From contig JAHBMJ010002940.1 in assembly GCA_018398765.1 (NCBI GenBank), forward strand, positions 127,986-166,826: DNA of 38,841 nucleotides. Direction: 5' to 3'. This stretch comes from Chromera velia (lineage: Eukaryota; Sar; Chromeraceae). Numbering within the stretch: position 1 is the first letter of the stretch; every line of letters starts with the position of its first letter. The notes beneath the pieces are model-generated. The model worked only from the letters and a program-made list of their open reading frames with translations, did no database searches and had not been told where the DNA came from. This document shows positions 1,359 to 35,729 of the stretch, piece by piece. Both the position numbers and the translations under genes were made by a program.

Positions 1359-1979
1359 GGCATGTAACTCATTTCTCTCTGACACAACACACAGGCATGT
1401 AACTTACTTGTCTCTGATACAACACATAGCCATATAGCTAACTTCTCTCTGACACAACACATAGGCATGTAACTCATTTCTCTCTGACACAATACATAGG
1501 TATGTAATTCATTTCTCTCTGACACAACACATAGGTATGTAGCTCATTTCTCTCTGACACAACACACAGGCATGTAACTCCTTTCTCTCTGACACAACAT
1601 ACAGGCATGTAACTCATTTCTCTCTGACACAACATACAGGCATGCAACTCATTTGTCTCTGACACAACATACAGGCATGTAACTCATTTCTCTCTGACAC
1701 AACACACAGATATGTCACTTATTTCTCTCTGACACACCATACAGGTATGTAACTCATTTCTCTTTGACACAACACACAGGTATGTAACTCACTTATCTCT
1801 GACGCACTAGCTGATACAACATACAGACATGTAACTCATTTCTCTTTGACACAACATACAGGCATGTAACTCATTTCTCTCTGACATAACAGATAGGCAT
1901 GTAACTTACTTCTCTTTGACATAACACACAGGTATGTAACTCATTTCTCTCTGACACAACATACAGGTATGTAACTCAC

Positions 1980-3080
1980 TTGTCTCTAATACAACACACA
2001 GCCTTGTAACTCACTTATCTCTGACACAACACACAGGCATATAACTCATTTCTCTCTGACATAACACACAGGTATGTAACTCACTTGTCTCTGATACAAC
2101 ACATAGGCATGTAACTCACTTCTTTCTAACATAACACACAAAGTTTAACATGTAACTCATTTCTTTCTGACACAACACACAGGCATGTAACTCATTTCTC
2201 TCTAACACAACACACAGGCATGTAACTCACTTGTCTCTAATATAACACACAGCTATGTAACTGACTTCTCTCTGATGCAACACACAGGCATGTAACTCAT
2301 TTCTCTCTGACACAACACATAAGTATGTAACTCATTTCTCTCTGACATAACACACAGGCATGTAACTCACTTGTCTCTGACACAACACACAGGCATGTAA
2401 CTCACTTCTCTCTGACATAATATACAGGCATATAACTCATTTCTCTCTAATACAACACACAGGTATATAACTCATTTCTCTCTGATACAACATACAGGCA
2501 TGTAACTCATTTTCCTCTGACACAACATACAGGCATGTAACTTATTTCTCTCTGATACAACACACAGGTATATAACTCATTTCTCTCTGACACAACACAG
2601 AGATATGTAACTCATTTCTCTCTGACTTAATACACAGGCATGTAACTCACTTGTCTCTAATACAACACACAGCCTTGTAACTCACTTATCTCTGACACAA
2701 CACACAGGCATATAACTCATTTCTCTCTGACATAACACACAGGTATGTAACTCACTTGTCTCTGATACAACATATAGGCATGTAACTCACTTCTTTCTAA
2801 CATAACACACAAAGTTCAACATGTAACTCATTTCTTTCTGACACAACACACAGGCATGTAACTCATTTCTCTCTAACACAACACACAGGCATGTAACTCA
2901 CTTGTCTCTAATATAACACACAGCTATGTAACTGACTTCTCTCTGATACAACACACAGGCATGTAACTCATTTCTCTCTGACACAACACACAAGTATGTA
3001 ACTCATTTCTCTCTGACATAACACACAGGCATGTAACTCACTTGTCTCTGACACAACACACAGGCATGTAACTCATTTCT
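1980..3080. repeat. tandem 671-bp higher-order duplication in satellite
   Basis: The segment from about 1980 to 2410 recurs at about 2651 to 3080, offset 671 bp. Both contain the CAGCCTTGTAACTC unit and the irregular AAAGTT(T/C)AACATG unit. A further relative of the irregular unit lies near 4230. Confidence 0.75.
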
Positions 3081-5097
3081 CTCTGACATAACACACAGGC
3101 ATATAACTCATTTCTCTTTGACACACCATACAGGCATGTAACTCATTTCTCTCTGATACAACACACAGGCATGTAACTCATTTCTCTCTGATACAACACA
3201 CAGGCATGTAACTCACTTACGCTCACTTGTCTCTAACACAAGACACAGACATGTAACTCATTTCTCTCTGACACAATACACAGGCATGTAACTCATTTCT
3301 CTCTGACACAACATACAGGCATGTAATTCATTTCTCTCTGACACAACACACAGGCATGTAACTTATTTCTCTCTGACACAACATATAGACATGTAACTCA
3401 TTTCTCTCTGATACAACACACAGGCATGTAACTCATTTCTCTCTGATACAACACACAAGTATGTAACTCATTTCTCTCTGACACAACATACAGGCCTGTA
3501 ACTCATTTCTCTCTGACACAAGACACAGGTATGTAACTCACTTCTCTCTGACACAACACATGGGTATATGACTCATATTTCTCTCTAACACAACACATAG
3601 GCATGTAACTCATTTCTTTCTGATACAACACATAGGTATGTAACTCACTTCTCTCTGATACAACACACAGTTATGTAACTGACTTCTCTCTGACATAATA
3701 TACAGGCATATAACTCATTTCTCTCTAATACAACACACAGGTATATAACTTATTTCTCTCTGATACAACATACAGGCATGTAACTCAGTTGTCTCTGACA
3801 CAACACACAGGCATGTACCTCATTTCTCTCTGATAGAACACATAGCTATGTAACTCATTTTTCTCTGACACAACACAGAGATATGTAACTCATTTCTCTC
3901 TGACTCAATACACAGGCATGTACCTCATTTCTCTCTAACACAACACACAGGCATGTAACTCATTTCTCTCTGACACAATATACAGGCATGTAACTCATTT
4001 CTCTCTGACACAACACACAGGCATGTAACTCACTTGTCTCTGATACAACACATAGGTATGTAACTCATTTCTCTCTGATATAACACACAGGCATGTAACT
4101 CACTTGTCTCTAACACAACACACAGGTATATAACTCACTTCTTTCTGACACAACACACAGGCATATAACTCACTTGTCTCTGATACAACACATAGGCATG
4201 TAACTCACTTCTTTCTAACATAACACACAAAGTTTAACATGTAACTCATTTCTTTCTGACACAACACACAGGCATGTAACTGATTTCTCCCTAACACAAC
4301 ACACAGGTATGTAACTCACTTGTCTCTAATATAACACACAGGTATGTAACTGACTTCTCTCTGATACAACACACAGGCATGTAACTCATTTCTCTCTGAC
4401 ACAACACACAAGTATGTAACTCACTTGTCTCTGACACAACACACAGGTATGTAACTCATTTCTCTCTGACATAACACACAGGCATGTAACTCATTTCTCT
4501 TTGACACACCATACAGGCATGTAACTCATTTCTCTCTGATACAACACACAGGCATGTAACTCACTTATGCTCACTTGTCTCTAACACAACATACAGACAT
4601 GTAACTCATTTCTCTCTGACACAATACACAGGCATGTAACTCATTTCTCTCTGACACAACATACAGGCATGTAACTCATTTCTCTCTGACATAACACACA
4701 GGCATGTAGCTCAGTTATCTTTGCTACAACATACAAGTATGTAACTTACTTGTCTCTGATACAACACACAGGCATGTAACTCATTTCTTTCTGACACAAG
4801 ACACAGATATGTAACTCACTTCTCTCTGATACAACACATGGGTATGTGACTCATATTTCTCTCTAACATAACACACAGGCATGTAACTCATTTCTCTCTG
4901 ACACAATACACAGGCATGTAACTCATTTCTCTCTGATACAACACACAGCTATGTAACTAACTTCTCTCTAACATAATATACAGGCATATAACTCATTTCT
5001 CTCTAACACAACACACAGATATGTAACTCATTTCTTTCTCATACAATATACAGGTATGTAACTCACTTGTCTCTGACATAACATACAGGCATGTAAC

Positions 5098-6624
5098 TCA
5101 TTTCTCTCTGATACAACACACAGGTATGTAACTCATTTCTTTCTGACACAACACATAGATATGTAACTCATTTCTCTCTGACACAACACACAGGTATGTA
5201 ACCGACTTATCTCTGATACAACACACAGCCATGTAACTGACTTTTTTCTGACATAACACACAGGCATATAACTCATTTCTCTCTAACACAACACACAAGT
5301 ATGTAACTCATTTCTGTCTGATACAACATATAAGCATATAACTCACTTGTCCCTGACAGAACACACAGACATGTAACTCATTTCTTTCTGATAGAACACA
5401 CAGGCATGTACCTCATTTCTCTCTAACATAATACACAGGCATATAACTCACTTGTCTCTCACATAACACACAGGTATGTAACTGACTTCTCTTTGACATA
5501 ACACACAGGCATGTAACTCATTTCTCCCTGATACAACACACAAGTATGTAACTCATTTCTCTTTGATATAACACACAGGCATGTAACTCACTTGTCTCTA
5601 ACACAACACATAGGTATGTAACTCATTTCTTTCTGATGTAACACATAGGCATGTAACTCATTTCTCTCTGACACACCATACAGGCATGTAACTCATTTCT
5701 CTCTGATAAAACACACAGCTATGTAACTCACTTGCACTCACTTGTCTCTAACACAAGACACAGACATGTAACTCATTTCTCTCTAACACAATACACAGGC
5801 ATGTAGCTCATTTCTCTCTGACATAACACACAGGCATATAACTTATTTCTCTCTGACACAACACACAGGCATATAACTCATTTCTCTCTGACACAACACA
5901 GAGCCATGTAACTCATTTCTCTCTGATACAACACACAGCCTTCAAGATGTAACTCACTTGTCTCTGACACAACACACAGGCATGTAACTCATTTCTCTCT
6001 GACATAACATACAGGCATGTAACTCACTTGTCTCTGATATAACACACAGATATGTAACTCATTTCTCTCTGATACAACACACAGGCATGTAACTCATTTC
6101 TCTCTGACACAACACACAGGCATGTCACTCATTTCTCTCTAACATAACACACAGGCATGTAACTTATTTCTCTCTGACACAATACACAGGCATGTAACTC
6201 ATTTCTCTCTGACATAACACACAGATATGTAACTCATTTCTCTCTGACACAACACACAGGTATGTAACTCATTTCTCTCTGACACAACATACAGGCATGT
6301 AACTCATTTCTCTCTGACACAACACACAGGCATGTAACTCACTTGTCTTTGCTACAACACATAAGTATGTAACTTACTTGTCTCTGACACAACACACAGG
6401 TATGTAACTCATTTCTCTTTGACACAAGACACAGGTATGTAACTCACTTCTCTCTGACACAACACATGGGTATGTGACTCATATTTCTCTCTAACACAAC
6501 GCACAGGCATGGAACTCATTTCTCTCTGACACAATACACAGGTATGTAACTCATTTATCTCTGATACAACATACAGCCATGTAACTGACTTCTCTTTGAC
6601 ATAATATACAGGCATATAACTCAT
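5098..6624. repeat. higher-order repeat block, copy A
   Basis: This stretch of the satellite is repeated with an offset of about 2515 bp at 7613-9139. The same diagnostic variants occur in the same order: an ACTGACTTTTTTCTGAC unit, a TGCACTCACT insertion, CAGAGCCATG, CCTTCAAGATG, and the TGGGTATGTGACTCATATT unit. Limits are approximate. Part of it (5098-5298) also has a nearer copy at 6726-6926. Confidence 0.8.
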
Positions 6625-7612
6625 TTCTCTCTAACACAACACACAGGTATGTGACTCATTTCTCTCTCATACAATATACAGGCATGTAACTCACTTGTCT
6701 CTGACACAACATACAGGCATGTAACTCATTTCTCTCTGATACAACACACAGGTATGTAACTTATTTCTCTCTGACACAACACACAGATATGTAACTCATT
6801 TCTCTCTAACACAACACATAGGTATGTAACTGACTTATCTCTGATACAACACACAGCCATGTAACTGACTTTTTTCTGACATAACACACAGGCATATAAC
6901 TCATTTCTCTCTAACACAACACACAAGTATGTAACTCATTTCTGTCTGATACAACACACAGGCATGTAACTCACTTATGCTCACTTGTCTCTAACATAAC
7001 ACACAGACATGTAACTCATTTCTCTCTGACACAATACATAGGCATGTAACTCATTTCTCTCTGACACAACATACAGGCATGTAACTCACTTGTCTCTGAC
7101 ATAAGACACAGGCATGTAACTCAGTTGTCTTTGCTATAACATACAAGTATGTAACTTACTTATCTCTGACACAACACACAGGCATGTAACTTATTTCTTT
7201 CTGACACAAGACACAGGTATGTAACTCACTTCTCTCTGATACAACACATGGGTATGTGACTCATATTTCTCTCTAACATAACACACAGGCATGTAACTCA
7301 TTTCTCTCTGACACAATACACAGGCATGTAACTCATTTCTCTCTGATACAACACACAGCTATGTAACTAACTTCTCTCTGACATAATATACAGGCATATA
7401 ACTCATTTCTCTCTAACACAACACACAGATATGTAACTCATTTCTTTCTCATACAATATACAGGCATGTAACTCATTTCTCTCTGATACAACACACAAGT
7501 CTGTAACTCATTTCTCTCTAACACAACATACAGGCCTGTAACTCATTTCTCTCTGACACAACACACAGGCATGTAACTCACTTGTCTCTGACACAACATA
7601 CAGGCATGTAAC

Positions 7613-9139
7613 TCATTTCTCTCTGATACAACACACAGGTATGTAACTCATTTCTCTCTGACACAACACACAGATATGTAACTCATTTCTCTCTGACACA
7701 ACACACAGGTATGTAACCGACTTATCTCTGATACAACACACAGCCATGTAACTGACTTTTTTCTGACATAACACACAGGCATATAACTTATTTCTCTCTA
7801 ACACAACATATAAGTATGTAACTCATTTCTATCTGATACAACATATAAGCATATAACTCACTTGTCTCTGACACAACACACAGACATGTAACTCATTTCT
7901 TTCTGATAGAACACACAGGCATATAACTCATTTCTCTCTAACATAACACACAGGCATGTAACTCACTTGTCTCTCACATAACACACAGGTATGTAACTGA
8001 CTTCTCTTTGACATAACACACAGGCATGTAACTCATTTCTCCCTGATATAACACACAAGTATGTAACTCATTTCTCTCTGATATAACACACAGGCATGTA
8101 ACTCACTTGTCTCTAACACAACACATAGGTATGTAACTCATTTCTTTCTGATGTAACACATAGGCATGTAACTCATTTCTCTCTGACACACCATACAGGC
8201 ATGTAACTCATTTCTCTCTGATAGAACACACAGCTATGTAACTCACTTGCACTCACTGGTCTCTAACACAAGACACAGACATGTAACTCATTTCTCTCTA
8301 ACACAATACACAGGCATGTAACTCATTTCTCTCTGACATAACACACAGGCATATAACTTATTTCTCTCTGACACAACACACAGGCATATAACTCATTTCT
8401 CTCTGACACAACACAGAGCCATGTAACTCATTTCTCTCTGATACAACACACAGCCTTCAAGATGTAACTCACTTGTCTCTGATACAACACACAGGCATGT
8501 AACTCATTTCTCTCTGACATAACACACAGGCATGTAACTCACTTATCTCTGATATAACACACAGATATGTAACTCATTTCTCTCTGATACAACACACAGG
8601 CATGTAACTCATTTCTCTCTGACACAACACACAGGCATGTCACTCATTTCTCTCTAACACAACACACAGGCATGTAACTTATTTCTCTCTAACACAATAC
8701 ACAGGCATGTAACTCATTTCTCTCTGACATAACACATAGGTATGTAACTCATTTCTCTCTGACACAACACACAGGTATGTAACTCATTTATCTCTGATAC
8801 AACACACAGTTATGTAACTGACTTCTCTCTGACATAATATACAGGCATATAACTCATTTCTCTCTAATACAACACACAGATATATAACTTATTTCTCTCT
8901 GATACAACATACAGGTATGTAACTCATTTCTCTTTGACACAAGACACAGGTATGTAACTCACTTCTCTCTGACACAACACATGGGTATGTGACTCATATT
9001 TCTCTCTAACACAACACACAGGCATGGAACTCATTTCTCTCTGACACAATACACAGGTATGTAACTCATTTATCTCTGATACAACATACAGCCATGTAAC
9101 TGACTTCTCTTTGACATAATATACAGGCATATAACTCAT
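7613..9139. repeat. higher-order repeat block, copy B
   Basis: Second copy of the block at 5098-6624, offset about 2515 bp, with only scattered substitutions. The shared irregular units show that multi-unit segments, not only single 35-bp units, were duplicated. Confidence 0.8.
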
Positions 9140-9989
9140 TTCTCTCTGACACACCACACAGGTATATAACTCATTTCTCTCTGATAGAACACACAGCTAT
9201 GTAACTTACTTGCACTCACTTGTCTCTAACACAAGACACAGACATGTAACTCATTTCTCTCTGACACAATACACAGGCATGTAACTCATTTCTCTCTGAC
9301 ATAACACACAGGCATGTAACTCATTTCTCTCTGACACAACACACAGGCATATAACTCATTTCTCTCTGATACAACACAGAGCCATATAACTCATTTCTCT
9401 CTGATACAACACACAGCCTTCAAGATGTAACTCACTTGTCTCTGATACAACATACAGGCATGTTATAGTAACTCATTTCTCTCTGACATAACACAAAGGC
9501 ATGTAACTCATTTCTCTCTAACACAACACACAGGTATGTAACTCATTTCTCTCTGACACAACACACAGACACATAACTCACTTGTCCCTGATACAATACA
9601 TAGCTACATAACTCACTTGTCTCTGACACAACACACAGGTATGTAATTCATTTCTTTCTGACACAACAAATAGGCATGTAACTCACTTGTCTCTGACACA
9701 ACACACAGGCATGTAACTCAAATCTCTCTAACAGAATATAGAGGCATATAACTCATTTCTCTCTAACACAATATACAGGCATGTAACTTACTTATCTTTG
9801 ATACAATACATAGCCATGTAGCTTATTTCTCTCTCACACAACACACAGGTATATGTACTCATTTCTGTCTGACAGAACACACAGCTATGTAACTCATTTC
9901 TCTCCTACACAACATACAGGCATGTAAGTCACTTGTCTCTGACATAACACACAGACATGTAACTCATTTCTCTCTGATACAATACATAG

Positions 9990-19537: not shown

Positions 19538-19620
19538 ACACACACACACACACACACACGCGCGCGCGCGCGTATATATACATCTAGATATGTGTATATT
19601 AATATATAATAATATGTTTA
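19538..19620. repeat. (CA)n(CG)n then TA-rich simple repeat
   Basis: A CA run turns into CG and then into ATATAT-type sequence over about 80 bp, with strong potential for alternative DNA structure. Confidence 0.9.
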
Positions 19621-19789
19621 ATAATATATGTGTTTAACTTTTACTCACTGACGCTAGCCTTCAACAATGAAAAAATGCCTAGAAAAAGGAAATTAGTGAT
19701 TAGTGGTGCCCTAGAGAGCACTGTCGCCGTTTTGTTTTGAGATAGCGTTATTAACAACTTTTATACTAAGATTCTATATAATTATACTA

Positions 19790-21526: not shown

Positions 21527-22791
21527 ATGGAAGGTGTGACAGAGGATGTACCGGCTCCGGAAATTCTGCAGATCGTCGGGGCTATTGAAGGACTGTCTCA
21601 GTAGATTGACTCTATGCAGGTAACGCAAAACCTACATGGAGAAACTCTGCAATTACTTGTTTCTCAAGCCCCTCAGGAATCTGTCCAGGCAACGGTGACG
21701 TCACTTACCATTGCGCTAGCCCAAAGTACAACCGCGTCCTCATCGTACTACATGAAGCTGTGCAAGGCCCCTGCTCTGTTCTCTAGAGTGCGAGCCAAGC
21801 TGACCAGATGGTTGAAAGACGTAGAAGACTTCTACAAACTTGAGAAAGTGTTAGACCTGGACAAGTACTGGTGGCAAAGAACAGAATATCCCAGGACCTG
21901 AAGGAATGGTTTGACCTCTATGACGTTGAGAACGGACCATTTCAGAACTAAGAGTCGTTAAAGGCTGCCCTCATCGAGCACTATTCAGACACACTGGCCA
22001 GACAGAAGGCCAGAAAGGACCTGAAGAAGTGCTGATGCACTAGAGCTGGGGTTAACGACTACAACAAGCGATTTAAGCCGCTTGTCACGAAACTGAAAGG
22101 CCGGTTGATCAAAGAAGACATCGTTGAAGACTATATCTCTGGTTTGCCAGCAGATGTCCATCTTGAAACAAACAAGGCATATCCGGTCAACTTGGTCATC
22201 GCCATGAAGATGGCAAGCGAGCTTGAAGTCTTTCTCTCTGGTAGAGAAGGACCACGAGGCGGGATACGAGACTTTCAAAGGCCGAGTGCCTTCGAGAGTG
22301 GTGGGAAGAGTGCCCGACGCAACTCTCCACTGGGACAAGAGGAAAGGCCCGTCCCCGTAGACCTATGTGGGGACTGTCAACTCCCACCACCACTCACACC
22401 AGCAGAGAGGTCTCTCTGTATTGCAGAGGGAAGGTGTTTCAGATGCCGCCTCGCAGGGCATACTGCTAGGCAGTGTCCAGGTTCCTTCTCTGGACTCGGC
22501 GGAAACTTCTCTGGAATGCGGAGACTCACTGGCGGAGGGAACCCTCAAGACTCGCAGGACTACGGGAGATTCCGTGGAGACTTCAAGCAGGGGGGATGAG
22601 GGCAGGGCAGAGGCAGATACCAGGGAGATCGCAGAGGGTTTGGAGCTCCATTCCCGACCGCCCAAGCATGGCCACCTCTGGGCCAGTCACAGTGGAGAGG
22701 GGGACGCAGAGACGGTGGTCCCAGAGGAAGAGGAAGAGGTGGAAGGAAGCCGGCAGGTAGGGGAGTTCGAACAATCTACGGAGGTTTCGAG
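21527..22791 (+). pseudogene. gag: gypsy gag with CCHC zinc knuckle
   Basis: Gag forms the virus-like particle and binds RNA. It starts at ATG 21527 (MEGVTEDVPAPEILQIV). The capsid-like part includes LTRWLKDVEDFYKLEKVL, LKAALIEHYSDTLARQKA and VNDYNKRFKPLVTKLKG, followed by a knuckle CFRCRLAGHTARQC (CX2CX4HX4C, about 22438-22479) and an RG-rich tail. Four in-frame stops and one frameshift make it non-functional. Gag runs into pol without a frame change, as in single-ORF gypsy elements. Confidence 0.8.
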
Positions 22792-23538
22792 ATGGATGAG
22801 GTGATAGGAGCAGAGGGACTCGAAACTTGTGGTCAGTGCCCCGAGATGGGAGGAAGCCCTGAGAATGAAGACGTGCCAATGGAAATAAAGGAGGAGGAAA
22901 ATGAAACAGGGGTCTGTTCGGGGTTGTTTGTGTTTTCAGGTCGAGTGGCTGGTGTACCTGTCAGAGTTTTAGTTAATTTCGGTGCAGATAATATTTATCT
23001 TGACCGTCGTTTTGCCCATACCCACCATCTTCGTGTGTGTAGATTGAGACGACCCGTCAACTTGCACGGTGCCCTCAAGTCTTCAAAGACTTGGTCGGTC
23101 TGTGAATGTGCACCCACAATGCCGATCAACATTCAAGGGTATTAAGAGACAGTGAGTGCAATGTTGGCCGACCTGGATGAGTATGATTTGATCTTGGGGA
23201 CAAAGTGGGGTCGTGTCTATGAGCCTGAACTGCAGTGGTTGTCTCAAAGTCTGCGTTTTTGGTTTAGAGGGAAATTGATTTATTGGATTCCAGATGTGGA
23301 GTTGGAGGAAGAGGATGAGGAACAAACATTCAGCACTCCTTCTCTTCTCTCTTCTGTGTAAGCAAAGCGGGCAATCCGGAAAGGAGCTGTCTGCTATCTA
23401 GTCAGACTGCAGACAGAAATCCCTTTCAGTGAGTCCACTGGGGTTGCTTGCAGAGTTCAGGGATTACATGAAGTCAGTGAGGACGGGAGGAGAAAGAATC
23501 CTAGGGAGAATGGAAAGGGATTTTGGGGTAGTGAGGCA
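22792..23538 (+). pseudogene. gypsy aspartic protease region, catalytic Asp lost
   Basis: The segment VAGVPVRVLVNFGADNIYLD (about 22945-23004) aligns with the active-site strand of retroelement proteases. These normally read D-(S/T)-G-A; here the Asp is Asn and the next residue Phe. The downstream LADLDEYDLILGTKW (about 23164-23208) matches the conserved YDxILGxxW segment that closes these domains. Stops at 23143 and 23359 interrupt the frame. Confidence 0.7.
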
Positions 23539-24157
23539 ATGAATGATGATTTTCACTCTTCTCTTCCTTCTGATTATCCTGTTCTCTCTTCGCCTGAATT
23601 GACTGAGGCTTGTGAGTACCTGAAGAAATCAACCATGCCGATCGACGTGAAGAGAATTGTGGCAGACAATGCATCTCGCTTTCTTGATTCCTTGATAGGG
23701 CTGCCGCCGTCCAGGGGGGAAGGACTTGACTTCAAGATAGATCTCGAACCAAGACACCCACCTCCAGCTCACCCACCTTATCGTCTCTGTTTGGGTGAGC
23801 TGGATGAATTGAGTAAGCAAGCTGATACATACTTGAAGCAAGAATTCATTCGACCGTCTTGTTCTCCTTTTGCAGCACCAGTTTTGTTTGTGGCAAAGAA
23901 GGATGGGACAATGAGGATGTGTTGTGACTATATGGGATTAAATAGAATCATAGTGAAGGACAAGCATCCATTGCCTCATTCTCAAGATTTCATCGATAGG
24001 CTGTATGGGGCAAAGTTTTTCACAGCTCTTGATCTTCGGCAATACTACCATCAGATGAGAATGAGAGAGAAAGACGTGCCCAAAACAGCCTTCACGATGA
24101 GGTATGGGAATTATGAATGGCTGGTGGTCTCTTTTGGATTAACGAATGCCCCGAACA
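23539..24157 (+). pseudogene. pol: gypsy reverse transcriptase, N-terminal half
   Basis: Clear RT fingers and palm: FKIDLEPRHPPPAHPPYR, then PSCSPFAAPVLFVAKKDGTM, RMCCDYMGLNRIIVKDKHPL, FFTALDLRQYYHQMRM (motif A with its Asp) and WLVVSFGLTNAP (motif B). The YxDD motif C should follow within about 40 residues, but the sequence switches near 24157 to antisense copia DNA. The remaining 65 codons of the open frame to 24360 are antisense to copia integrase and should be ignored. Confidence 0.9.
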
Positions 24158-25050
24158 ATGAGGCATTTTCTCTCCTCCCCCTCCTCAGTAGGAGGCGGGA
24201 CCTCTGCATCTGCCTCAACAACGACTGTTCCCTCATCAAATCTCTCTATCTCCACTCTTCCTTCTCGCTTCGACACAACGAGATCAAAGGCATCACTGCT
24301 GTCCTCCTCCCATTCAAAACCTCCGTCAGATCTGTTGGAATCATCAAGGGCCTCGGTTGAGGCAGAATCGGACGAGCACTCACCGACCCACTGGTGAAGA
24401 CGGACTTGAGAAGGATGAATACGAACCGTCTGCCACCCCCCTTTGCACTTCACAACAACAGAGACGGCCTTCGAAGAGAACACCCCCCCAAAAAAACCAA
24501 TCTCTCCCTTTGGTACAAAGCCTTCTTGCAAGCCAGGAGCGCGATTGACAAAGCGCACCCTGTCTTTAATGGTCACAGAACATACCCCCGGACTGTTTTT
24601 GAAGACGGCAGAGTCGGGAGACTTTCCAGTGTGTGAGTGAACCGTCTCACTCATCTGCTGTGCAACCCCCTGCAGGAAAGACGGCCAGAGGTAGGCAGGG
24701 ACGGGAATGGAGAGGAACAACTTCCGCAGGACAGACTTTAGAGTGGCATTCACTCTTTTAATGAGCTCCTGGCTTTGTGGCATGTACGGGGCCCCGAAAT
24801 CCTATGAAATGCCCTCTTGTCTGCAAAACCGTCTATAAGAAGATAAAGTGAATTCCCCTCCGTTATCTGAAGAGACAATCTTTGGTTTTCCTTTTCCCAA
24901 GTGTTCAAACTTTCTCGTCTAGTGGATCAGATAGTGCATGGCCATCTATTTCTTTCTGATTGCCATCAAGTCAACCTTCTTTGTTGCTTTATCAACAATC
25001 ACAGAAATCCAGAAAACACCCTCCACCCCCTGAACTTTCACCTTAATTTG
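24158..25050 (-). pseudogene. copia-1 integrase core and C-terminal part
   Basis: The DDE core is visible: VFWISVIVDKATKKVDLMAI supplies the first Asp, KIVSSDNGGEFTLSSY the second, and MPQSQELIKRVNATLKSVLR the Glu. VRFVNRAPGLQEGFVPKGE and KGGWQTVRIHPSQVRL follow, resembling integrase C-terminal segments, then an acidic linker up to the junction. Three TAG codons lie in the core (24948, 24921, 24804), and no TGA. Confidence 0.8.
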
Positions 25051-25951
25051 TCAAGTCATGAATGATTCTGTCATTGAACTCATTCACACGCGAAGACACA
25101 CCATAAGCAGGCACATTCCATGCACGTGCATTCACTCTGATATACGCATCGCACTCTTCACCCACTTGCTGACACTCATACAAGGATACGTCAATTCCTT
25201 TTTCATGCAGTGTCTTTCTCAGACGCTCACCCACGGCATGACAATATCTGTGATACAACAGGTTCACAAGGTGTGCACGCTTGTCTGCATCCACAGGCAC
25301 CCGGAGACAACGCAATCTTTCTTCTGCTTTCTTTCTTTTCTCAGTGTCTGGATCGCTGTGCTTTCTTGTATGTGCTTCGGCCTTTTCCTTTGAGTAGGAA
25401 GGAAGAGGCTCAGAAAAGCGAACATACTTGCACCCATAATCAGACTTCCTCACTGCAGAAGGTTGAGCACTCTCTCCTTTTCTTTCTGAATCATTCAAAA
25501 ACAAAAGAGGCAAAGAGTCTTTTCCAATCACCCGTGCAGGAAACTTTTCTCCGTTCACATCCTCCCACCAAACGCAGCCACTTCCCTCCTCCAAATCAAG
25601 ACGCTTCTTGCTGGCAAAAAGCAAAGACTGATCGATTTAATCACTCACCGCCGCCTCTTCACGCGCTGTCCTCCAGACACCCCAATTTATATCGAAGACC
25701 GGCAGGTGCAGAAGTGCGATTTGAGACGTGGTGAGGACTGCGTAGGAACGAGCAATGTCAAACACTTTCACTTTGTCATACGTAGATACAGAGTAGGCAG
25801 CAGCGACAGAGGGAGAAACCAAACTAAAGGTATTGTCGGAATCGATAAGAAGGGAAGGAGCATGCTTCAAACAAGACTTTCTTTGTCTTTTCTTCGCAGA
25901 TTCTGCCTTTTCTCTCTCCTTACTACCCCCACCACAACCCTCAGGCAGCAC
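25043..25951 (-). pseudogene. copia-1 protease and gag-pre-integrase region
   Basis: One frame spans protease and pre-integrase, interrupted by TAA 25639. The likely protease active site is SLLIDSDNTFSLVSP (about 25855-25811), with Asp-Ser kept but Gly replaced by Asp. Further on, LLYHRYCHAVGERL, VSLYECQQVGEECDA gives His and Cys pairs like the HHCC zinc-binding pre-integrase domain. The frame is lost near 25045 and resumes shifted by one base in integrase. Confidence 0.65.
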
Positions 25952-26010
25952 CGGTACAGAAGGAGAAAGATCCCCCCCTGTCCTGGTGGATGACCGTTGG
26001 CCTGACAGGT

Positions 26011-26610
26011 CTAGTTTGATGAGGAAGACGAGGACCCAGAGCCCCCGGCTTTCCCCTCATCGGCCTTCTTCTTATGACACATCCTCTCAAAGTGTCCCTT
26101 CTTTCCGCATGGCTCGTAGTTGCACTTCTTCTCGAAGGTGTAGCAGTCTTTAGCCTTGGAACCATGCTCTAGACCACAGTTGGGACAGTCTTTTTTCTTG
26201 GGGGCAGAGGGAGACTGAGGGGGAGGTCGAGAACGGGACCTGGACGAGCTGTTTTGACCGCCGCGGGAAGGAGAACGACCTCTCCCGGCAGCCTGTTGTG
26301 CATTCTCCCTCTCTTTTACTCTGGATGCGCTGTCCCTCTCACTCTGCCTATGACCCCTCTTCCTCACCTTCCTCAGCTTCTTCACAAGACCGATGGTCTT
26401 GGCCAGAGTGGCCAACAGCTCGTAAGAGATACCGTCGTAATTGATGTCCTCCATCTTCATCTGGGGATTAGCAACGATCTGGACCTACTACCCAGAGGAG
26501 GCGGAACGAGAAACACCGAAGCGGGGCGAGGACATCGAAGACAGGCCTCCTGTTATTCTGGTAGACGCGGAGACGGCGTCACTAAACATAGAAGACTTGT
26601 GTGATGATTG
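26011..26610 (-). pseudogene. gag: copia-1 gag with zinc knuckles
   Basis: The frame runs through SMFSDAVSASTRITGGLSSM, two adjacent TAG codons, then MKMEDINYDGISYELLATLA. A basic Arg/Ser-rich linker leads to CPNCGLEHGSKAKDC and CNYEPCGKKGHFERMC, the second close to CCHC with a CX4C opening. It ends in a Ser run. The N-terminal capsid portion upstream of 26610 is unclear. Confidence 0.7.
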
Positions 26611-26751
26611 AGGGTTAAATCCTAGATTTAGCGACACCAAATCCCAAGTCACTAGGAAGGCTTTGAGGACAGCCCAGAGCACACATTCATGGGGGGGGGG
26701 ATGAAGAAGCCTAGGCAGAATTGTGTATAACAGCAACACCATATCCTTCAT

Positions 26752-26827
26752 TTTTTTCTTATTATCAGAAGTGCTCGTACCCTTTCCGGTTACATTTGCA
26801 ACGCGTTATGCGATCTGTATTTTTATG
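26752..26827. other. boundary between copia-1 and LINE
   Basis: A short T-rich stretch (TTTTTTTCTTATTATC at about 26749-26766) would be an A-rich 3' tail for the minus-strand LINE. This suggests the LINE 3' end lies here, directly beside the copia gag. No target-site duplication was found by eye. Confidence 0.4.
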
Positions 26828-29511
26828 TTAATAGGCGCTTTCTGCTTCCCAAATTCTGTTCCGTTCCCTTTCTGTGTCCTTACATTCCGTCAGAACATGA
26901 ACCTCATCTTTGATCATATGCAAGGGGGACAAACATTTATCGTACAGCTGTTCCTGTCGGGTTCTATCTATATCCCCCCCTGTGAGAGCCCTGAAAAGCA
27001 TACGGAAGCCTGCGGAGGACTGCAATAGACTCTTTGGTAGAGGTTCAACACTGTACTCTATCATTTCACTTCTTGGACGCCATTTCCTTTCTGAATCACT
27101 CAGAAGGTGCATGGCCAAACGCTGTCTGGACGGATTCTCTAATTAGAAAGGGGAGAGATTCGCAAGGTGGAGAAAAATTCCATCTCTGTCTCTAACATTT
27201 CTAGTTTCTTCTTTCAACCAGTCGGACAGCCAGGCACCCTCTACAATCTTTTTTGCCGCCCTTTTCCTTTTGCCCTTGCCCTTCTTTTTAAACTTATCCC
27301 CCACCGTGCTTAGCAATGGAGACCACAAAAGGGAGCAATCTAATGGAACGGCCAGCCATTTTACTGTCTTAACGAAGGGTTCACACGAGCCGGCCAAGCA
27401 CTCATTCCACATTGCCTGGGGTAGAGCACGGTCGATCGATTTGATGCATTGGATGAAACCCTCGCTCAACTTACTAAGTAGAGAACTGAATGGCTCAAGA
27501 GAGAGAGAGAAAAGGGAAGGCGAGACAAAGGAGTGATGAGAGAGACCAAAACAACATTGAATAAAACGTAACTGTAATGCATCGAGGCAGGCAACATCTG
27601 TCTTTCTCAGTGGGATCGTTTCCAGTCTATACAGTGCGACTAGCAGCCAGAAAGCCTTAAACAAAGTAATTTTAGAAAAGGGAAAAACAAAGCCCAGAGA
27701 AGAGAGAGTACCAAACACAACCCCCAATGCCTTTTTTACCGCCTCAATACGGGCTTCGACTGTCTTGCTAAGGTCTCCGCCCTCAAAAACCTAGTTGCCT
27801 GAATACTTATATTTACTCACCGCTTCCACTGGTCTGCGTTCATAAAGAAAAGGGGTCCGAGGCACTAGGTCGGGGTGGGGGGAGGAGAGACGCATAACTT
27901 TTGTCTTTTTTAAATTCACCTTCAGGCCATGCTCCTTACAATAGTCCTCGAGGTGAGACAGGCGTTTCTGCAAGTCTGAAGCACTGTGAGCAAACAGAAC
28001 AAGGTCGTCAGCGTATCCGATGCTTTCGATTAAAACGTCAGACAGTCTGACAGGAGTCTCTCTATCAGTACCCCCAGCCGAGCTTTGATTCCTGTTTTCA
28101 TTATTGGAGCTGACAGACTTATGCAGATTGTTGATGAAAAGAAGAAAGAGGAGAGGAGAGAGAGGATCGCCTTATTTTAGTCCTCCGCCTTCTAGAAAGC
28201 ATTCTATTGCCCCATCCACCCAAGCCTTCACCTGACTATACATTGAATGAATCATCCAAACATCGGCTTAGCTTACTCCTTCCTCTCTGAGCCTTTCTAA
28301 TATTTTGACCTGAGGAACTGTATCAAACGCCTTGCTGAAATCAACAAACGTGGCAATCAGAGGGCTCTTCTTCTTTTTGGAGCTGAGAATTAACGAAGAC
28401 AAAGCAGCGAAGGCCTCTCTTGTCCCTACCTCCTGTCTGAAGCCGAGCTGCCTTTCATCAATTTTCACCTCCTTCCTGATTTTTAAGTCCATCAATAAAG
28501 CAAAAATCTTACCCAGAAGCCCCACAATGTGGATCGGGTGCCATTCGTTACAGTCGAGACTTGGCGGGCCCTTGGGGACTGGAGCAATGCGTAATACATT
28601 CTAGCGTTCAGGCTAAAAAGAAAAAAAGTGAAACAAATTGAAAAAGACAAAGAGTAGCAAGCGGGAGAGAGGAGAAAAACTAAAACATAACGAGAGGTGA
28701 CAGGAGCTAACCCCATCCAAACCCAACGCCTTCTTTAGGTCAATTCTTTTCAGTGTTTCCTCAATCATATATATAGAGAAGGTGGGCTGAGAAGGAGGGG
28801 GGAAGGCCAGACCAACAGGTGCAGGCAGAAGACCAGGACCGTCAAAGACCCCTGCCCAGAACTGAGTGAAAGAAGATGCAGCGGGTTTATTATCCCCTCC
28901 CCTCTGTGTTTTGATTTTTCTGTTCCATTGCCATACTTTTGAGGGGTCAACTGCTACTTTTCTAGCTAGTCTCTCTGCTGTCTGTTGCTCGAGCTTACTC
29001 CTTTTTGCTGCAAACAGTCGAGCTCTTTCCCTTCTCAATTTGACACATTCTTTTTGCAAAGGGTGGGAAGGGTTCGGAACATGTTTTACCTTTTCCTTGG
29101 CCTCCTTCACCTTGAAATGTATCAGGCGGCATTGTGGGTCCCACCAAGCCTGACGGGTGCTCTGCTTTCTCCTAGACTATCTTTTTTTCTTGGATGCCTT
29201 TCCCCCGTCTACCACTGCACCCACTTTGCTGTCTGCTAACTTTTCTTCCCAGGAAAGACCCAACTGTTCCAATTGTTCAAGATAAGAAGCTTTGCTGAGA
29301 AAGTTGGGGGGGGGAGCATTCTGAAGGGGAGGTGGTTGTGGGGGAAGGGGTGGGGGGTCAGGGGGAGGTGGGATCGGGGGAACAACTTGACCTCGTTCAC
29401 GCAGTTTGTTTACCCCTCTGTCGAACAGGCCGGGAAAAACCGTCTCAGAGAACGGCAGGACCGCTCTGATAAGGGGAATCATTTCATTATCAGTCACTGA
29501 GGAAGTTCTAT
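26828..29511 (-). pseudogene. LINE reverse transcriptase and C-terminal zinc knuckle
   Basis: After a Pro-rich linker (about 29390-29330) come IDLKKALGLDGVSSCHLS, RIAPVPKGPPSLDCNEWHPI, DERQLGFRQEVGTREAF, FVDFSKAFDTVPQVK (motif A), GLK-stop-GDPLSPLLF (motif B), YADDLVLFA (motif C, about 28016-27990) and LKVNLKKTKVM (motif D). A C-terminal CLSPLHMIKDEVHVLTECKD resembles the usual Cys/His knuckle. Seven TAA/TAG codons and no TGA interrupt this single frame. One falls at the normally conserved Gln before GDPLSP. The frame ends at TAA 26830, which may be the natural end. Confidence 0.85.
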
Positions 29512-30600
29512 TTATAGTGAGGAGAGGGGGGAGAAAAGAGAAATTCTTTCGCCCGTGGGGGCATGTAGAAGATCAGAAGACATAGGGGGAGGAGATGAAT
29601 CAAGAAAAAAAGAAAGAGAAAGAACAACATATTGTGGGGCAAAGTGAGCTTCCAGGTTTGAAGTGGCAGAGGACCAGGCTATCAAAAGAAAAGGATCTAC
29701 AAAAAAGTGATCAATCGCTGTTGTTTCTTCTCTTGCTTTAAAAAAGGTGCACGGGCCCGGGAAGGAGACATCAACACCCAGCCTCTCATATTTCAAGGAC
29801 AGGCCATGGAGAGAAATTAAGTTAAAACGTTTATAAAGACGGATCAGCCAATTCCCTTGCTTGTCAGGTTGACTGCCATAGCTGCAGGCTGACAATCGAG
29901 AGGGCTTACAAGCATCAACTTCGTTCTCTTCTCTGCTTTCATCAGTGGGACATAGCATTCTTTTCCAAGTCAGCCCTTCCGGCATCCGAGTCCCCAGCTT
30001 GCCATTCATATCCCCAACCAGGATACACAAATCCTCGAGAGGTACCTGACACAGTGCATCGATCACACCCTCTCTCTCTCTGTCTCTTAGCTCCCTGTCT
30101 CTCTGTCTCAGGTCAGACCCTCTAGGTAGAAAGTACATACCGAAAACATGGAGGACTCTTGTGGCTGACTCCCCTCCTTCTGAGGGAGAAGGCACACTCG
30201 CTGACAGACGGACCAGATTTTAACCCACCAGCTCCCACTTTAGCTGCAGTTCATGAATTAAAGAATTCCTGACTAGGATGTATACACCCCCTGTCCTTGC
30301 TTTCCCGATGGTTGCGGCTTTCCTTCTCGACCCTTCTGCTTTAATTTTCCTTCTCAACCACTCAAAGTGATCGAAATTATACCCTGTATGAGTGGATGTT
30401 CTTATGGGCATGGAGGGGCACTTCATTTCAGTTAACACCACAATGTCTGCCTGGCATTGCCAAGCGGCCAGCCACCACTCGAGAGCCTTGCTTCGTATGC
30501 ATGACCCCAGCTCCCCCACATTTACCGTTTTTATTGTGAGTTTCCTTCTTCCTGAAGCCATAAGACCAGACTTTACATCGTAAGAAGGAGAGAAAGCATT
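29512..30600 (-). pseudogene. LINE endonuclease/exonuclease/phosphatase (APE) domain
   Basis: This domain nicks target DNA to prime reverse transcription. Motifs in order are LTIKTVNVGELGSC (Asn of the first motif), ADIVVLTEMK (catalytic Glu), GGVYILVRNSL, LCILVGDMNGKLG (the Asp-x-Asn motif, about 30025-29985), TAIDHFFVDP and SNLEAHFAPQYVV. In the last, the usual Ser-Asp-His is reduced to Glu-Ala-His. TAA 30222 interrupts the frame. The start is arbitrary, near MASGRRKLTIKTVN. Confidence 0.8.
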
Positions 30601-30880
30601 GTGGGAGGGTGAGGATGCAGAAGGGAAGAGAAGGGGGGGGAGGACGGCTAAAAGACCCATTGAGGGATTGAAGAGGTTGCGGAGGGGCACACCGATGGGG
30701 CAGAGGCAGAAGCACATGCAGAAGCCAAAGCAGAAGAGGAAAAAGAAAAAGAAACAGAAGCAGAAAAAGAAGAAGAAGAAGAAGAAGAAGAAGAAGAGGA
30801 TGCGGAAGAAGGAGAAGAGGAGGAGGAGGACGACGACACTGCAACCGGAGGGGGGGGAAGGTTGGAAGGAGAACCTGCAT

Positions 30881-31703
30881 GACGCTTTTGTCGGTCTAAG
30901 ACTTCACACTTTCTGAGTCTGCATGCTTCCCTGCGACCGGCCCAGAAGGCACATACTAGACGCTGTCCATCTTCAGAAGGGAACGGAGAACGAACTCTTG
31001 GAGATGTTCATTGTCCCCCATCGTGACTGAAGAAACCGAAAACTTTGGAGACCGGACAAGAGGGACAGCTGTTTACATGCGCCTGTGTACGTCAGTTTAT
31101 GCCCGCCTCAGATGCACCACATATAGAATAAGTGATGAACTGAGGGCATAAGATTCTATACAGAAAGTCTGTTATACAGGAGAGACAAGAAACGGTCTCC
31201 CTTCAACAGTTTTTAACCATTGGAGCAGGCCAATCGGTGAAAGATTGGCATGTTTTCACAGAATTCGTCATCCATGCATTCATATGCATCATGGCCCGTA
31301 AAGGTACTAGACCCGGGCCAAGCAGATGCGCGCCGGCCACGGAATAATCGATCTGACAGGTCTGCGCCGATCGCGCAGGATCGAAAAAATTAATTGGGTG
31401 AATTGAAGTTTTGCGCAGCCTGTATCAAATTTAATGACAATAATAATTTGCCACTATAATGTGACTCATACAATTGCAAGACATAATTATCATTTACGTT
31501 AGATTTCAAACGATCGCTATGCGCATCTCCTAGGCAAGCGATAGTATGCAGGGACCTGCACTGAAGAGACAGAGCCCTTGTAAAAAGATTTTAAGCTAGC
31601 AATACAGTTAGATAAAGATACGTATACAAAACAATCTTCTACAATTTGCGCACTTATGTATGCAACAGCTATAAAAAATTCACCACAGATCAAGAGAATT
31701 AAT
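30881..31703. other. LINE 5' region and A/T-rich spacer, no gene seen
   Basis: The first few hundred bases may be LINE 5' sequence. The rest (about 31400-31700) is A/T-rich without a convincing frame on either strand. Confidence 0.4.
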
Positions 31704-32999
31704 TTATAGCTTATAATGGTTTAATTCAAGCTGCGACGTTTTGTATATACGTCTTATATTCAGACAGGCGCAAAGAGGACATCGACTAGACGCTTCTCTG
31801 AGAGAAGAGGCCTTATAAGAAAGTAAACGAATATGTTTCTCACAAGTCATCAAATCAGTGACACGACCTAGGACACGATGGCTAGGATGACTAAGACGGA
31901 TATATAAAAGGAACATATCATCATCATCCTTTTAGCGGATGGTACAATCATAGATAAGAACGTGTTTACGCTCCTGAGGCGTCTGTTGAGTGACCTGAGA
32001 TAAGGATTTGATACCAGAAGAATCTGACACAAGATGCGACGAAGACTGTGACTCTGACTTTTGCTTATCATCGGAGGAGGGAATCTTCTTCTGTTTTTTC
32101 TTTGACTGCTTCTGTTTTGGCTGTTGGGCTCCCAGTTGCTGCTATGCGTCAATGACATTCTTTCCTTTGCCTCCAATTTCTTGCTTGCTACTGTTGGCAT
32201 CAAAAGGATAGGCAAGACGATCGGAATCCTCAGGCCACAGAGATTTTCCGGAGTTCTTGTAGGCTCCTACTAAAAAAGCTTCAGTAGAGACTCCTTCACG
32301 AACACAAAAAGTCTCTCATGGTGGACAGAGATAGATTTGTTGACCTTAAGATAGGGTGTGTGGCCCTAGCCTTGGCCGAAAACCTATTTAGGAATGAAGG
32401 ATCGGTTTACAGCATCCAAAGGAAGAACAGGAGTCTTCAATCGGAAAATTTAATACCTGAGAGTCATTTAGAGTTGCCAGTTGGTGATCAATGGCAGGAA
32501 TCAAAGCACAATCCTGCCAATCACGCTTTCTATAAAAGCCATAGAAAGCAGTCCATACAGTGTGAATGGAGTTGTCGTCGGCATACGTAATCATAGAAAT
32601 GATGAAAATACTATCGATATGAGTGGTAATTTAAAACTTCTTACCATTCGCTATTATAAACTCCGTGAGAACGTTGTCATAGTGGGAGAGACCAGGCACA
32701 AAGTACTTACCGAAACAAGAGGGGAAGTAACCTTTGGTAGCACTAAAGTCGATCATCAATGTCAAAGAGACTGATATGCGGCTTCTCACTACAGCGAGAT
32801 CGGCTGAGTGAGCTTCCGCGGTGACTTCATGATCATGAGTCTAGACTGCGTTGTGCTTTAGCTCTTCCAGATCAACGTAGGTGGGGAGTTTAGTCAGCTT
32901 GAAGGACTAAACGATGGGAGTCTCTTCAGCAGCAAGGTGCTGATGAGTGAGAGTGCACATCTCGTGCTGCTGAGGCTTCGCCATTTCCTGCTCAATGGC
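31704..32999 (-). pseudogene. copia-2 protease and gag-pre-integrase region
   Basis: The protease active site appears as LTLMIDFSATKGYFPS (about 32778-32731): Asp is kept, and Ser-Gly-Ala is changed to Phe-Ser-Ala. TEFIIANGKKF follows, like the conserved Ala-Asn-Gly segment. Near the end FLLYIRLSHPSHRVLGRV (about 31913-31860) and RCPLCACLNIRRIYK (about 31782-31738) are the His and CxxC parts of the pre-integrase domain. A Gln/Lys/Ser-rich linker joins the two. The frame ends at TAA 31706. Confidence 0.65.
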
Positions 33000-34274
33000 A
33001 CAATCGTAAAGATCTCAAAAGATCTGCGAAGGAGAAAAAAACAGGGACATCATGTTCCTATAGAACAAGTTCATGAGTGAGAGCGTTGGCATGTGCGTGG
33101 GTACGTTTGCTGCTGAAAGGCTTCTTCTACTGCTGTTTACCCTGACGATTGCCAGATCGGAATCCAGAGGAAGTCTTCGACTGCTGATTTTTTTTATGTT
33201 TACACGCTCGTGTCCAACGACCAGTGCGTCCACAGTTATTGCACTTGTCATTCGGTTTGACGGGATAGGAATAGGGCCCGGAGCTATTGTTCCCACACTT
33301 CTAACACTTCTTATTCGCTCGGACATTTTGGTCGGTGGAACGGTTGAATGGGAAGGTGGAAGGATGAGAAGCAGCCTTACTACCCCACCTATTCCCAAAC
33401 CCCCAGACCCACCACCCTGTCTGTTCTGTTGCCCTCCCCTAAGTTCCCCTGACCCACGTGCACCATGCAAAACGTTAAGTGTATGCTTGATCCGAAGGTC
33501 TGTGGATCCCCTTGACCTAGCTTAATGATAAAGTTCCAGTGGGCGAGGAGATTCGTGGCAAGGATCTCATGTCGACGATCAGACAGTTAGCCTTGGAGCT
33601 GAAGCGCATCTACGTACTGTCGAGGGATCGAACTTAAGAACTTGAAGTACAGATCCTCTTCAGTGGGATGGTACTTAACGTACTTTATGTCATATAAAAG
33701 CTTCTGCTAAGCCTGGACATACTTATACATGTTAGTGTACGTGCACCAGAAGTTGTCGAATTTCTGATACACGTCAACATACTGACGGTGCATTGGAAGC
33801 TCATAGTGTTCTTTTATGGTTGATAAGAGATACTCACAAGAAGGCGGGTCTATGTTCTCAGACTGCTATTTCTGACTGGCAGACAGTGGCAGTGTAAAGG
33901 ACATCGAGTGGCTCGGCGTTGTTGGCAGAGTTCTAAACGGAGTAGAAGATGGCTACATGTTCCTGAGTAGCCTTCTTTATCTTATCTTTGATGTCGCCAA
34001 ACATCACATCGAGCTGCAAGGACAAAGCTTGCTCGTAATCTCTAAACTGATCACGGCGAAACTTGTCGTACATGGGGATGTTGACGTAGGATACACGAGA
34101 TACGGTGTTGCCTCCATCGAAAGGATAGACATCCCCGGTTCGGTCCGAACGTTCAACTGCTGCCCCAGTGGAGGAAGCAGACGCCTGCTGTCGAATAGAC
34201 TTACGCTCCTGCGTCAAACAACTCTCTCGCTCCGCCCCAATGGCCAACATAGTGGTCCACTGTAGCTCTGTCAT
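33000..34274 (-). pseudogene. gag: copia-2 gag with degenerate zinc knuckle
   Basis: It opens with MTELQWTTMLAIGAERESC and continues with VNIPMYDKFRRDQFRDYEQ. In a shifted frame come YLLSTIKEHYELPMHRQYVD, NFWCTYTNMYKYVQA and EEDLYFKFLSSIPRQYVDAL, a capsid-like region. The knuckle DKCNNCGRTGRWTRAC (about 33235-33188) has Cys at three positions but Arg where His is expected. TAA/TAG occur at 33935, 33709, 33589, 33391, 33382, 33379, 33303, 33129 and 33060. Several sit beside CAG codons. Confidence 0.65.
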
Positions 34275-34320
34275 CTACAAAAGAGATGCAGTGACACCAC
34301 TGAGATTAATCTCCGGCTGC

Positions 34321-34323
34321 AGC

Positions 34324-34366
<43 letters not shown>

Positions 34367-34382
34367 CATACATATATACATA

Positions 34383-34411
<29 letters not shown>
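34321..34411. repeat. (TA)n-rich microsatellite
   Basis: A TA/CATA/TGTG run just upstream (on the minus strand) of the copia-2 gag start. Confidence 0.95.
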
Positions 34412-34416
<5 letters not shown>

Positions 34417-35729
34417 CAGGGGGATAATTGTTCTATACACAGAAATTAGCACACTATTACACACTATAGTGGACAAATCATCAATCCTAAATTATTGATG
34501 TCATAGAGCTACGGTCGCAGACTCGATGCGGAGTAATGCTAAGTAACGCGGAGTTATCACTATACTACCATTATGCTATAATGCATCATTACAGCCCTCA
34601 TATAATATGACGGCTAGTAAGATTTGCTACTCCAGATTTTACCTACTGCATGTATTAAGTTTTTTACTAGACTGTTATTAATACTATGAAGTTGAAGCCC
34701 TGTTTGGCTACTAGTAATCGGCCATGCATAGTAGACGTTTAAAACCTTTCAATTCCAATTTGACCTCATCTCTCTCTCGGTCTGCACATAGAGAGGTGAC
34801 GACGACCTCCAGCGCGCGGACATGCACTGCGCATGCAAGCCTCGATGCGCCTAGGAATGCGAGCTAGTATAGAGGCCCAAAGGTACAGGAGTGCATCCAT
34901 CAATCGAGTCACCCCCGGCACTTCAGCAGTATCGCACCAATCAACTCCTCTTTGCCTCTGTGAGCGATCGCATTCATTCTCCTTCAGATTCTCTTTCTGG
35001 GGCCTCTCTGCACACCTTCAGGAGGGCGGCTCGAAACAGGCGGGGAGGCATCGACCAATGAGAGAGAGAGAAGAAGAACAATTAAGGGAATGAAGGGAGA
35101 TTGCATGCAGGGACTCGACTCAACCGATGAACCACCCACCATCTCCTTTTCAATTTTAAACTCTTTCTGATCGAAGATCAGGTGCGGTAGACGGCGGAAC
35201 AAGCAGACTGACATTGAAGGAGCTAGGGGGGCGAATTTAAATGAAGGAAGGGGGCGCTTGTTTGACAAAAGAAGGAAAGGGGCAGGCAGCTAGGCCTCCA
35301 TGAGCACGGAATGAGATGAGCGTCTGTCTGCACACTGGATCGAATCTGATCGAGGGATTGATCGAGGGTTGGTTCCTTTACCCCATGGATACGGTAGGAG
35401 CACTGCAGTATGTTTGCGAGAACGAGTGGCGAGAGGATGGACAGGCAGACAGACAGACAGGATATTGGAGGAGGAAGGGAAGAGGGAAAGGGAACCAACG
35501 CAGAGCCCCAACGCATGCACTGATCATGTGACAAGAACAGCGCTGCTGGTGAGGGAGCGAATGAAAAAGAGAGAGAGGACGAACGTCCGTGTGGAGGAGA
35601 AAGAGAAAATCCACCAAAGTACCCCTATACCATCCATCGCCCCCCCTCCCACAAACGCAACGAGAAGTGCACATGTCGCATGGTAAATTTGATCGTGAAG
35701 CAGCACCGATATTTCTTTTATTTATTTTA
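34412..35729. other. spacer between copia-2 and MORN gene, no gene seen
   Basis: The first 350 bp are A/T-rich and may include the copia-2 leader or LTR. The rest is mixed sequence with a short ACAG run (about 35444-35460). Frames here on both strands lack family features. Some of it is probably the 3' untranslated region of the MORN gene. Confidence 0.4.

Follow-up and report, generated by a model that had tools for sequence, protein, structure and literature searches.

The behaviour that appears closest to the one described here is the Dim2-dependent mutation of Zymoseptoria tritici, in which, according to passages of PMC8016269, methylated repeats are altered mitotically, more than 95% of the mutations are C-to-T, over 98% of these C-to-T changes occur at CpA, and CpG is not mutated at high rates. 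Repeat-induced point mutation (RIP) in Neurospora and other Ascomycota, as treated in sections of PMC12543289 and PMC9246332, changes C to T on both strands of repeats, converting glutamine and tryptophan codons to TAA or TAG, as was also found in this work. The deamination of 5-methylcytosine in transposons, as portrayed in parts of PMC9998398 (on the DNMTs of stramenopiles, alveolates and Rhizaria, SAR) and PMC5890265 (on dinoflagellate DNMT retrotransposons), similarly links the change to repeats and to a preference for CpG and CpA. We analysed a 38,841-nucleotide stretch of the Chromera velia genome (contig JAHBMJ010002940.1), hereafter the window, in which positions 21527-34274 consist of retroelements nested in one another, interrupted by in-frame stop codons. 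These stops are, with high probability, scars left by strong C:G to T:A mutation on both strands of repeated DNA, in a genome that uses the ordinary genetic code. Chromera velia is a free-living photosynthetic relative of apicomplexans, and 58 matches to light-harvesting complex genes in the same genome identify its source as a photosynthetic eukaryote and hence not a fungus. The resemblance to Z. tritici, so far as its description in those passages extends, lies in the dominance of C-to-T changes, their location in repeats, the favouring of CpA and a gradual course, which is mitotic in that species and suggested here by an even distribution over gypsy copies. The differences are that in C. 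velia the rate at CpG is at least that at CpA, CpC and CpT are also raised, no Dim2-like enzyme was found in our searches, and the host is an alga.

The features on which the analysis draws are as follows.

21527-24152, plus strand: gypsy-type piece with a reverse transcriptase frame and a weak zinc knuckle; three in-frame stops judged.
24153-26600, minus strand: first piece of a copia element; five in-frame stops judged.
26602-30964, minus strand: long interspersed nuclear element (LINE) with a reverse transcriptase, inserted in the copia; five in-frame stops judged.
30965-31358, minus strand: second piece of the copia, with a long terminal repeat (LTR) at its end (about 31121-31358); on contigs shared with the first piece.
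31359-34274, minus strand: older, single-copy, copia-like gag remnant with no single open frame; the TpA-richest piece.
1359-9986, plus strand: satellite with a 35-bp unit and about 243 copies, serving as a repeat control outside the elements; also C-to-T biased.

Close copies of the elements, sought across 177.8 Mb of the genome in 4040 contigs, allowed mutations to be polarised as private changes, meaning differences confined to one copy of an alignment. Eight gypsy copies were aligned (the window and seven of nine listed), as were eight LINE copies (the window and seven from the 22 contigs listed), and columns with gaps or unclear neighbours were dropped, leaving 2024 of 2639 gypsy and 1348 of 1674 LINE columns. 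Among the private changes, C:G to T:A made up 297 of 348 in gypsy, with 19 reversals and 32 transversions, and 160 of 192 in the LINE, with 17 reversals and 15 transversions; lifting the rule on neighbours gave 362/422 and 175/211 C-to-T changes, respectively. Three further copia groups, comprising 27 of 30 RVT_2 copies once three without close kin had been dropped, yielded 80/94, 80/112 and 75/87, and the window's own copia aligned with two sisters gave 72/84 and 49/72. The C:G to T:A share of private changes consequently ranged from 68 to 86% across the six groups of element copies, and C-to-T was favoured over T-to-C by a factor of about 16 in gypsy and of about 9 in the LINE.

This excess was symmetrical between strands, with rates per C and per G of 0.307 and 0.296 in gypsy, and 0.235 and 0.241 in the LINE. 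The base 3' of the mutated cytosine mattered: pooled rates were 0.38 at CpA, 0.41 at CpG, 0.22 at CpT and 0.19 at CpC (CpA versus CpC and CpT, p about 3e-12), although even the CpC and CpT rates remained about ten times that of T-to-C. The second base 3' had no effect (CAG 0.375, CAH 0.385), and the 5' neighbour only a small one, with rates spanning 0.26-0.32 in gypsy and 0.16-0.29 in the LINE. A preference for the 3' neighbour with little regard for the 5' one is the pattern expected of methylation-linked deamination; on both strands it fits the site choice of a cytosine-5 methyltransferase, rather than that of AID/APOBEC enzymes or ultraviolet (UV) light. Two specific candidates were rejected on these rates. 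UV-type damage was set aside as TpC and CpC were not favoured over ApC in gypsy, and in the LINE it was GpC that fell below the rest; maintenance methylation of the CHG type was set aside as CAG/CTG showed no excess over CAH/CTH.

Deamination of single-stranded cDNA by an AID/APOBEC-like enzyme during reverse transcription would also generate C-to-T changes, as such enzymes are known to do. Yet the strand rates were equal, the 5' preference was small, and neighbouring events did not cluster by strand (109 of 229 on the same strand, against 114.6 after shuffling); furthermore, the satellite is affected too, and it has presumably never been reverse transcribed. We therefore regard this explanation as highly improbable. 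A profile search for APOBEC_N gave no match, but the controls were silent as well, making it uninformative.

The stops themselves lie where such a process would place them. Among 46 aligned copies, 35 of 67 TAA or TAG stops fell on columns otherwise encoding glutamine, 28 on tryptophan columns and four elsewhere, this total excluding the stops judged in the three-copy alignment of the window's copia. The 16 gypsy and LINE copies contributed 42 stops, of which 31 were TAA or TAG (19 glutamine, 11 tryptophan and one tyrosine column) and 11 were TGA (seven CGA, two tryptophan and two other columns). The 30 RVT_2 copies contributed 47, divided between 36 TAA or TAG (16 glutamine, 17 tryptophan and three other columns) and 11 TGA (eight tryptophan, two CGA and one other). 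Hence 39 of the 42 gypsy and LINE stops, and 43 of the 47 RVT_2 stops, occupied glutamine, tryptophan or CGA columns in the C-to-T direction.

The same columns decide the question of the genetic code. The original prediction had entertained the idea that the elements originate from, or reside in, a setting where UAR (UAA or UAG) is read as glutamine, and about half of the TAA and TAG stops (35/67) do sit on glutamine columns. However, 28 of the 67 are on tryptophan columns, which refutes this reading, and TGA stops at CGA and tryptophan columns occur in the same families. The eRF1 diagnostic motifs are NIKS and YxCxxxF; inspection of the eRF1 locus L069 found the standard TASNIKS and YLCDNKF. 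No TTA, CTA or TCA suppressor anticodon was present among 57 tRNA genes identified by ARAGORN in 40 stretches, an incomplete set, for which 63 of 4117 candidates were scored and which contains no leucine or proline gene. The best 30 kinase frames held 262 CAA or CAG codons, one TAG and two TGA. The stops do not show an altered code, the genetic code is standard, and we accord glutamine reassignment next to no probability. As a separate observation, eRF1 domain-1 matches occur on three contigs (L069, L070 and L071; contigs C1868, C3488 and C3696), that on C3696 differing around NIKS, such that eRF1 may be duplicated.

Within the window, the positions originally reported were accurate. Minus-strand stop codons are present at exactly 33129, 32144, 33709 and 33303 in the four strings that had been quoted, as are the adjacent pairs at 26490/26487 and 33382/33379 and the stop at 28174, and the long unshifted LINE frame is continuous across 27383-29032. 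The observation that stops are nearly all TAA or TAG also stood in frames supported by homology, with four TAA, six TAG and one TGA over the 1404 window codons aligned to the genome's reverse transcriptase and copia loci; this TGA, at 24358, sits beyond the border between gypsy and copia, and was dropped from the judged stops. The larger tally of about 35 TAA or TAG against three TGA was not confirmed, as only 13 window stops, covering parts of gypsy, LINE and copia, could be judged by sister copies (12 TAA or TAG and one TGA). Many of the others must fall in 31359-34274, which has neither a close copy nor a continuous frame, making the choice of frame free. That choice alters the counts: the LINE reverse transcriptase frame read over the whole of 27143-30903 contains 13 TGA, nine TAA and six TAG. 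Nor did the stops suit glutamine in particular, the 13 being divided between seven glutamine and six tryptophan columns. A ratio of 12:1 is not unusual, as the measured spectrum predicts about 23% TGA, and by our arithmetic the chance of one or fewer TGA among 13 stops is roughly 0.16. Base composition is not the cause of the excess: of 15 frames counted over these stretches, 13 contain TGA more often than either TAA or TAG. On the explanation that we prefer, TAA and TAG prevail since mutation favours CpA and CGA codons are scarce.

The genome's distant reverse transcriptase and copia loci were considered as judges of the window's stops and rejected in favour of close copies, because at 28-40% identity their columns are unreliable; read against those unreliable columns, one of 11 stops was plainly glutamine. 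Two sites were left out of the judged copia stops: a mixed site at 26256, and a TAG in the gag frame at 26013. The latter is common to all three copies examined; gag may naturally terminate there, or the stop may have been inherited.

Genome-wide, 150 RVT_1 matches contained 21 TAA, 29 TAG and six TGA by hand count, and 150 RVT_2 matches contained 40, 115 and 32, respectively. The corresponding figures for 136 kinase matches were two, nine and nine, also by hand count and with intron read-through possible, the TGA share differing between elements and kinase matches at p about 0.003.

Whether the process distinguishes repeats from other DNA can be judged from a satellite and from duplicated host genes. 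The 35-bp satellite carried 522 C:G to T:A changes against 105 reversals. Two host kinase loci (L018 and L021) that share 91% identity across 1.6 kb differ by 70 transitions and 52 transversions, compared with ratios of 13.0 and 11.4 to 1 in the elements (p about 7e-15 against the gypsy private changes), and a second kinase pair of 158 bases gave eight to six. Another pair (L017/L025, 17 to two) was discarded as a host control, because its sequence comes from the flanks of the loci and probably represents a repeat. These results support a C-to-T process aimed at repeats, although the host control is thin. That thinness, a comparison of two pairs only, is what favours a genome-wide C-to-T bias by which repeats are not singled out; yet both host pairs lack the bias, and the gypsy rates imply, by our arithmetic, an equilibrium GC content near 8%, whereas the kinase loci and window flanks stand at 49-52%. 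We consider such a general bias distinctly improbable.

The original prediction had offered RIP-like deamination as its other explanation, and this fared better: C-to-T changes are overwhelming on both strands, as RIP would have it, but they are not confined to CpA, the supposed dominant context, with CpG as high (0.41 against 0.38). The CpA/TpA comparison of elements with host genes that had been proposed gave no signal in the composition indices. TpA/ApT, which RIP raises, and (CpA+TpG)/(ApC+GpT), which it lowers, were 0.60 and 1.40 in the copia loci and 0.54 and 1.29 in the kinase loci, short of the usual RIP cut-offs. The remnant at 31359-34274 came nearest, at 0.83 and 1.19, no other element piece reaching the former value. 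Hence the process is RIP-like in its effect, though some signs of classical RIP fail. Classical RIP, a homology-sensing premeiotic process that mutates duplicates in bursts, would be expected to affect any long duplicate, host genes included. Its operation in this alga would account for changes on both strands, for CpA exceeding CpC and CpT, and for every repeat group tested being affected. It would not account for the indices, the high CpG rate, the unbiased 1.6 kb host duplicate, or gypsy copies that are evenly rather than patchily affected (index of dispersion 0.58). The indices, the even hits on gypsy copies and the spared host duplicate also set the C. velia pattern apart from the RIP described in the Ascomycota passages, as does the RID-type enzyme not being found in our searches, the methyltransferase matches being nearest DNMT2 and none clearly RID- or Dim2-like. 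We judge classical RIP unlikely.

The search for a cytosine methyltransferase used two profiles (PF00145 and TIGR00675), both of which returned the same three loci: L127, L128 and L130, on contigs C3982, C1092 and C675. All three are nearest DNMT2 in the PDB, the third, seen as a piece of 60 residues, only weakly so (E value 0.009). No clear RID/Masc1- or Dim2-like enzyme was matched by these searches, which proceeded exon by exon through an assembly that is possibly incomplete; the approach is able to detect a host gene here, since eRF1 gave five matches. DNMT2 is usually single copy. The source of the proposed methyl mark could be DNMT2 itself, a divergent DNMT, or a gene on small contigs absent from the assembly.

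The likeliest cause of the scars is methylation-linked deamination of repeats. The spectrum, its context and strand symmetry, its recurrence in six element groups and the satellite, and the placement of the stops are direct observations; the methylation step we infer. The target would be a cytosine bearing a methyl-type mark on repeats, and marked cytosines would deaminate over time, rather than in bursts, with single-copy host DNA largely spared. Acting after insertion, the process would turn glutamine codons into TAA or TAG, tryptophan codons into TAG or TGA, and CGA into TGA. A more ambitious and decidedly tentative proposal is that C. velia runs a RIP-like mutagenic defence, preferentially converting C before a purine to T in retrotransposons and satellites while sparing host duplicates, without DNMT1, DNMT3 or DNMT5, and perhaps via a DNMT2-type or other enzyme.

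Several points weigh against methylation-linked deamination of repeats. Firstly, the LINE copies are unevenly affected (dispersion 2.24), though some are closer kin than others. Secondly, the copies were selected for their similarity, being those that matched the window or a Pfam model best. Thirdly, stops were tallied per copy, such that inherited or recurrent ones count repeatedly and are not independent events. Fourthly, the satellite also shows 205 transversions, amplification spreads its variants, and a single column accounts for 71 of the 105 reversals. Fifthly, the host control amounts to one 1.6 kb pair, of unknown age, and one of 158 bases. Sixthly, the methyltransferase loci found are all nearest DNMT2, and no DNA, as opposed to tRNA, cytosine methyltransferase was clearly matched by these searches. 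Lastly, the gypsy and LINE counts of 12 TAA, 19 TAG and 11 TGA, for which the measured spectrum predicts 9.4, 22.9 and 9.7, are matched about as well by a uniform one-step model (11.8, 17.0 and 13.2). As the two models give nearly the same ratio, the proportions of stop types were dropped as evidence, which comes instead from the columns and the spectrum. Ordinary pseudogene decay, lacking any special bias, fits that ratio alone; the 16-fold and 9-fold excesses of C-to-T over T-to-C, together with 11-13 transitions to each transversion, make it very hard to credit.

What remains interesting is strong repeat-linked C-to-T mutation in an alga without an obvious DNA methyltransferase. In the systems covered by the SAR and dinoflagellate passages (PMC9998398, PMC5890265) the DNMT repertoire differs from that detected here, where the genes are DNMT2-like only, and where all four contexts are raised. 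Dictyostelium and Entamoeba likewise have DNMT2-like enzymes only, according to parts of PMC12405889, PMC2824750 and PMC3380923. The Dictyostelium enzyme is reportedly linked to retrotransposon silencing; passages of PMC12405889 find no biologically significant DNA methylation in this organism, cite an earlier report that dnmA depletion caused demethylation at retrotransposons, and do not describe a mutation scar of the kind seen in C. velia. Such a spectrum, with only DNMT2-like enzymes detected, would make this alga a test case. Searches of open-licence papers on RIP or C-to-T mutation in algae, protists or alveolates, and on methylation in Chromera, yielded no recognised report of such a process, which is not proof of absence. 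More generally, pseudogenes rich in TAA and TAG can mimic a reassigned code, and it is tryptophan columns, not the ratio of TAA and TAG to TGA, that discriminate between the two.

The architecture of the nest also differs from that first proposed. Four retroelements had been distinguished, but both copia pieces are found on the same contigs, and the first copia together with the first 394 bases of the second therefore constitutes a single family split by the LINE. Five copies cover most or all of the first piece at 86-92% identity, alongside partial copies; its bases 24280-25005 are homologous to the genome's copia loci, and two sister copies were aligned over 24274-25014 and 26008-26600 only. 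The LTR-sized end of the second piece (about 235 bases) is present twice in six contigs, 4 to 12 kb apart, with a spacing of about 5.6-5.8 kb in three of them. The gypsy piece has an RVT_1 match at 23362-24357 and a zinc knuckle scoring under the cut-off, with nine further copies among the matches listed, at 90-92%, seven of which were aligned. The LINE, with its RVT_1 match at 27794-28171, has copies on 22 contigs among the matches listed, also at 90-92%, and seven were aligned over 27383-29032. The remnant (GC 0.447, TpA/ApT 0.83) has no close copy genome-wide, except for one 81-base match at 73%.

The 110 bases at the edge of the LINE (26602-26711) match about 26 further contigs at 92-95%, compared with 90-92% for the LINE body; they may represent the 3' tail of the LINE, or else a short element in its own right. 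In the satellite, CpG is at 0.01 of expectation and the GC skew stays close to -0.42. Simple-sequence TpA-rich stretches flank the nest at 34313-34430 and 19561-19632, the rest of the window being TpA-poor.

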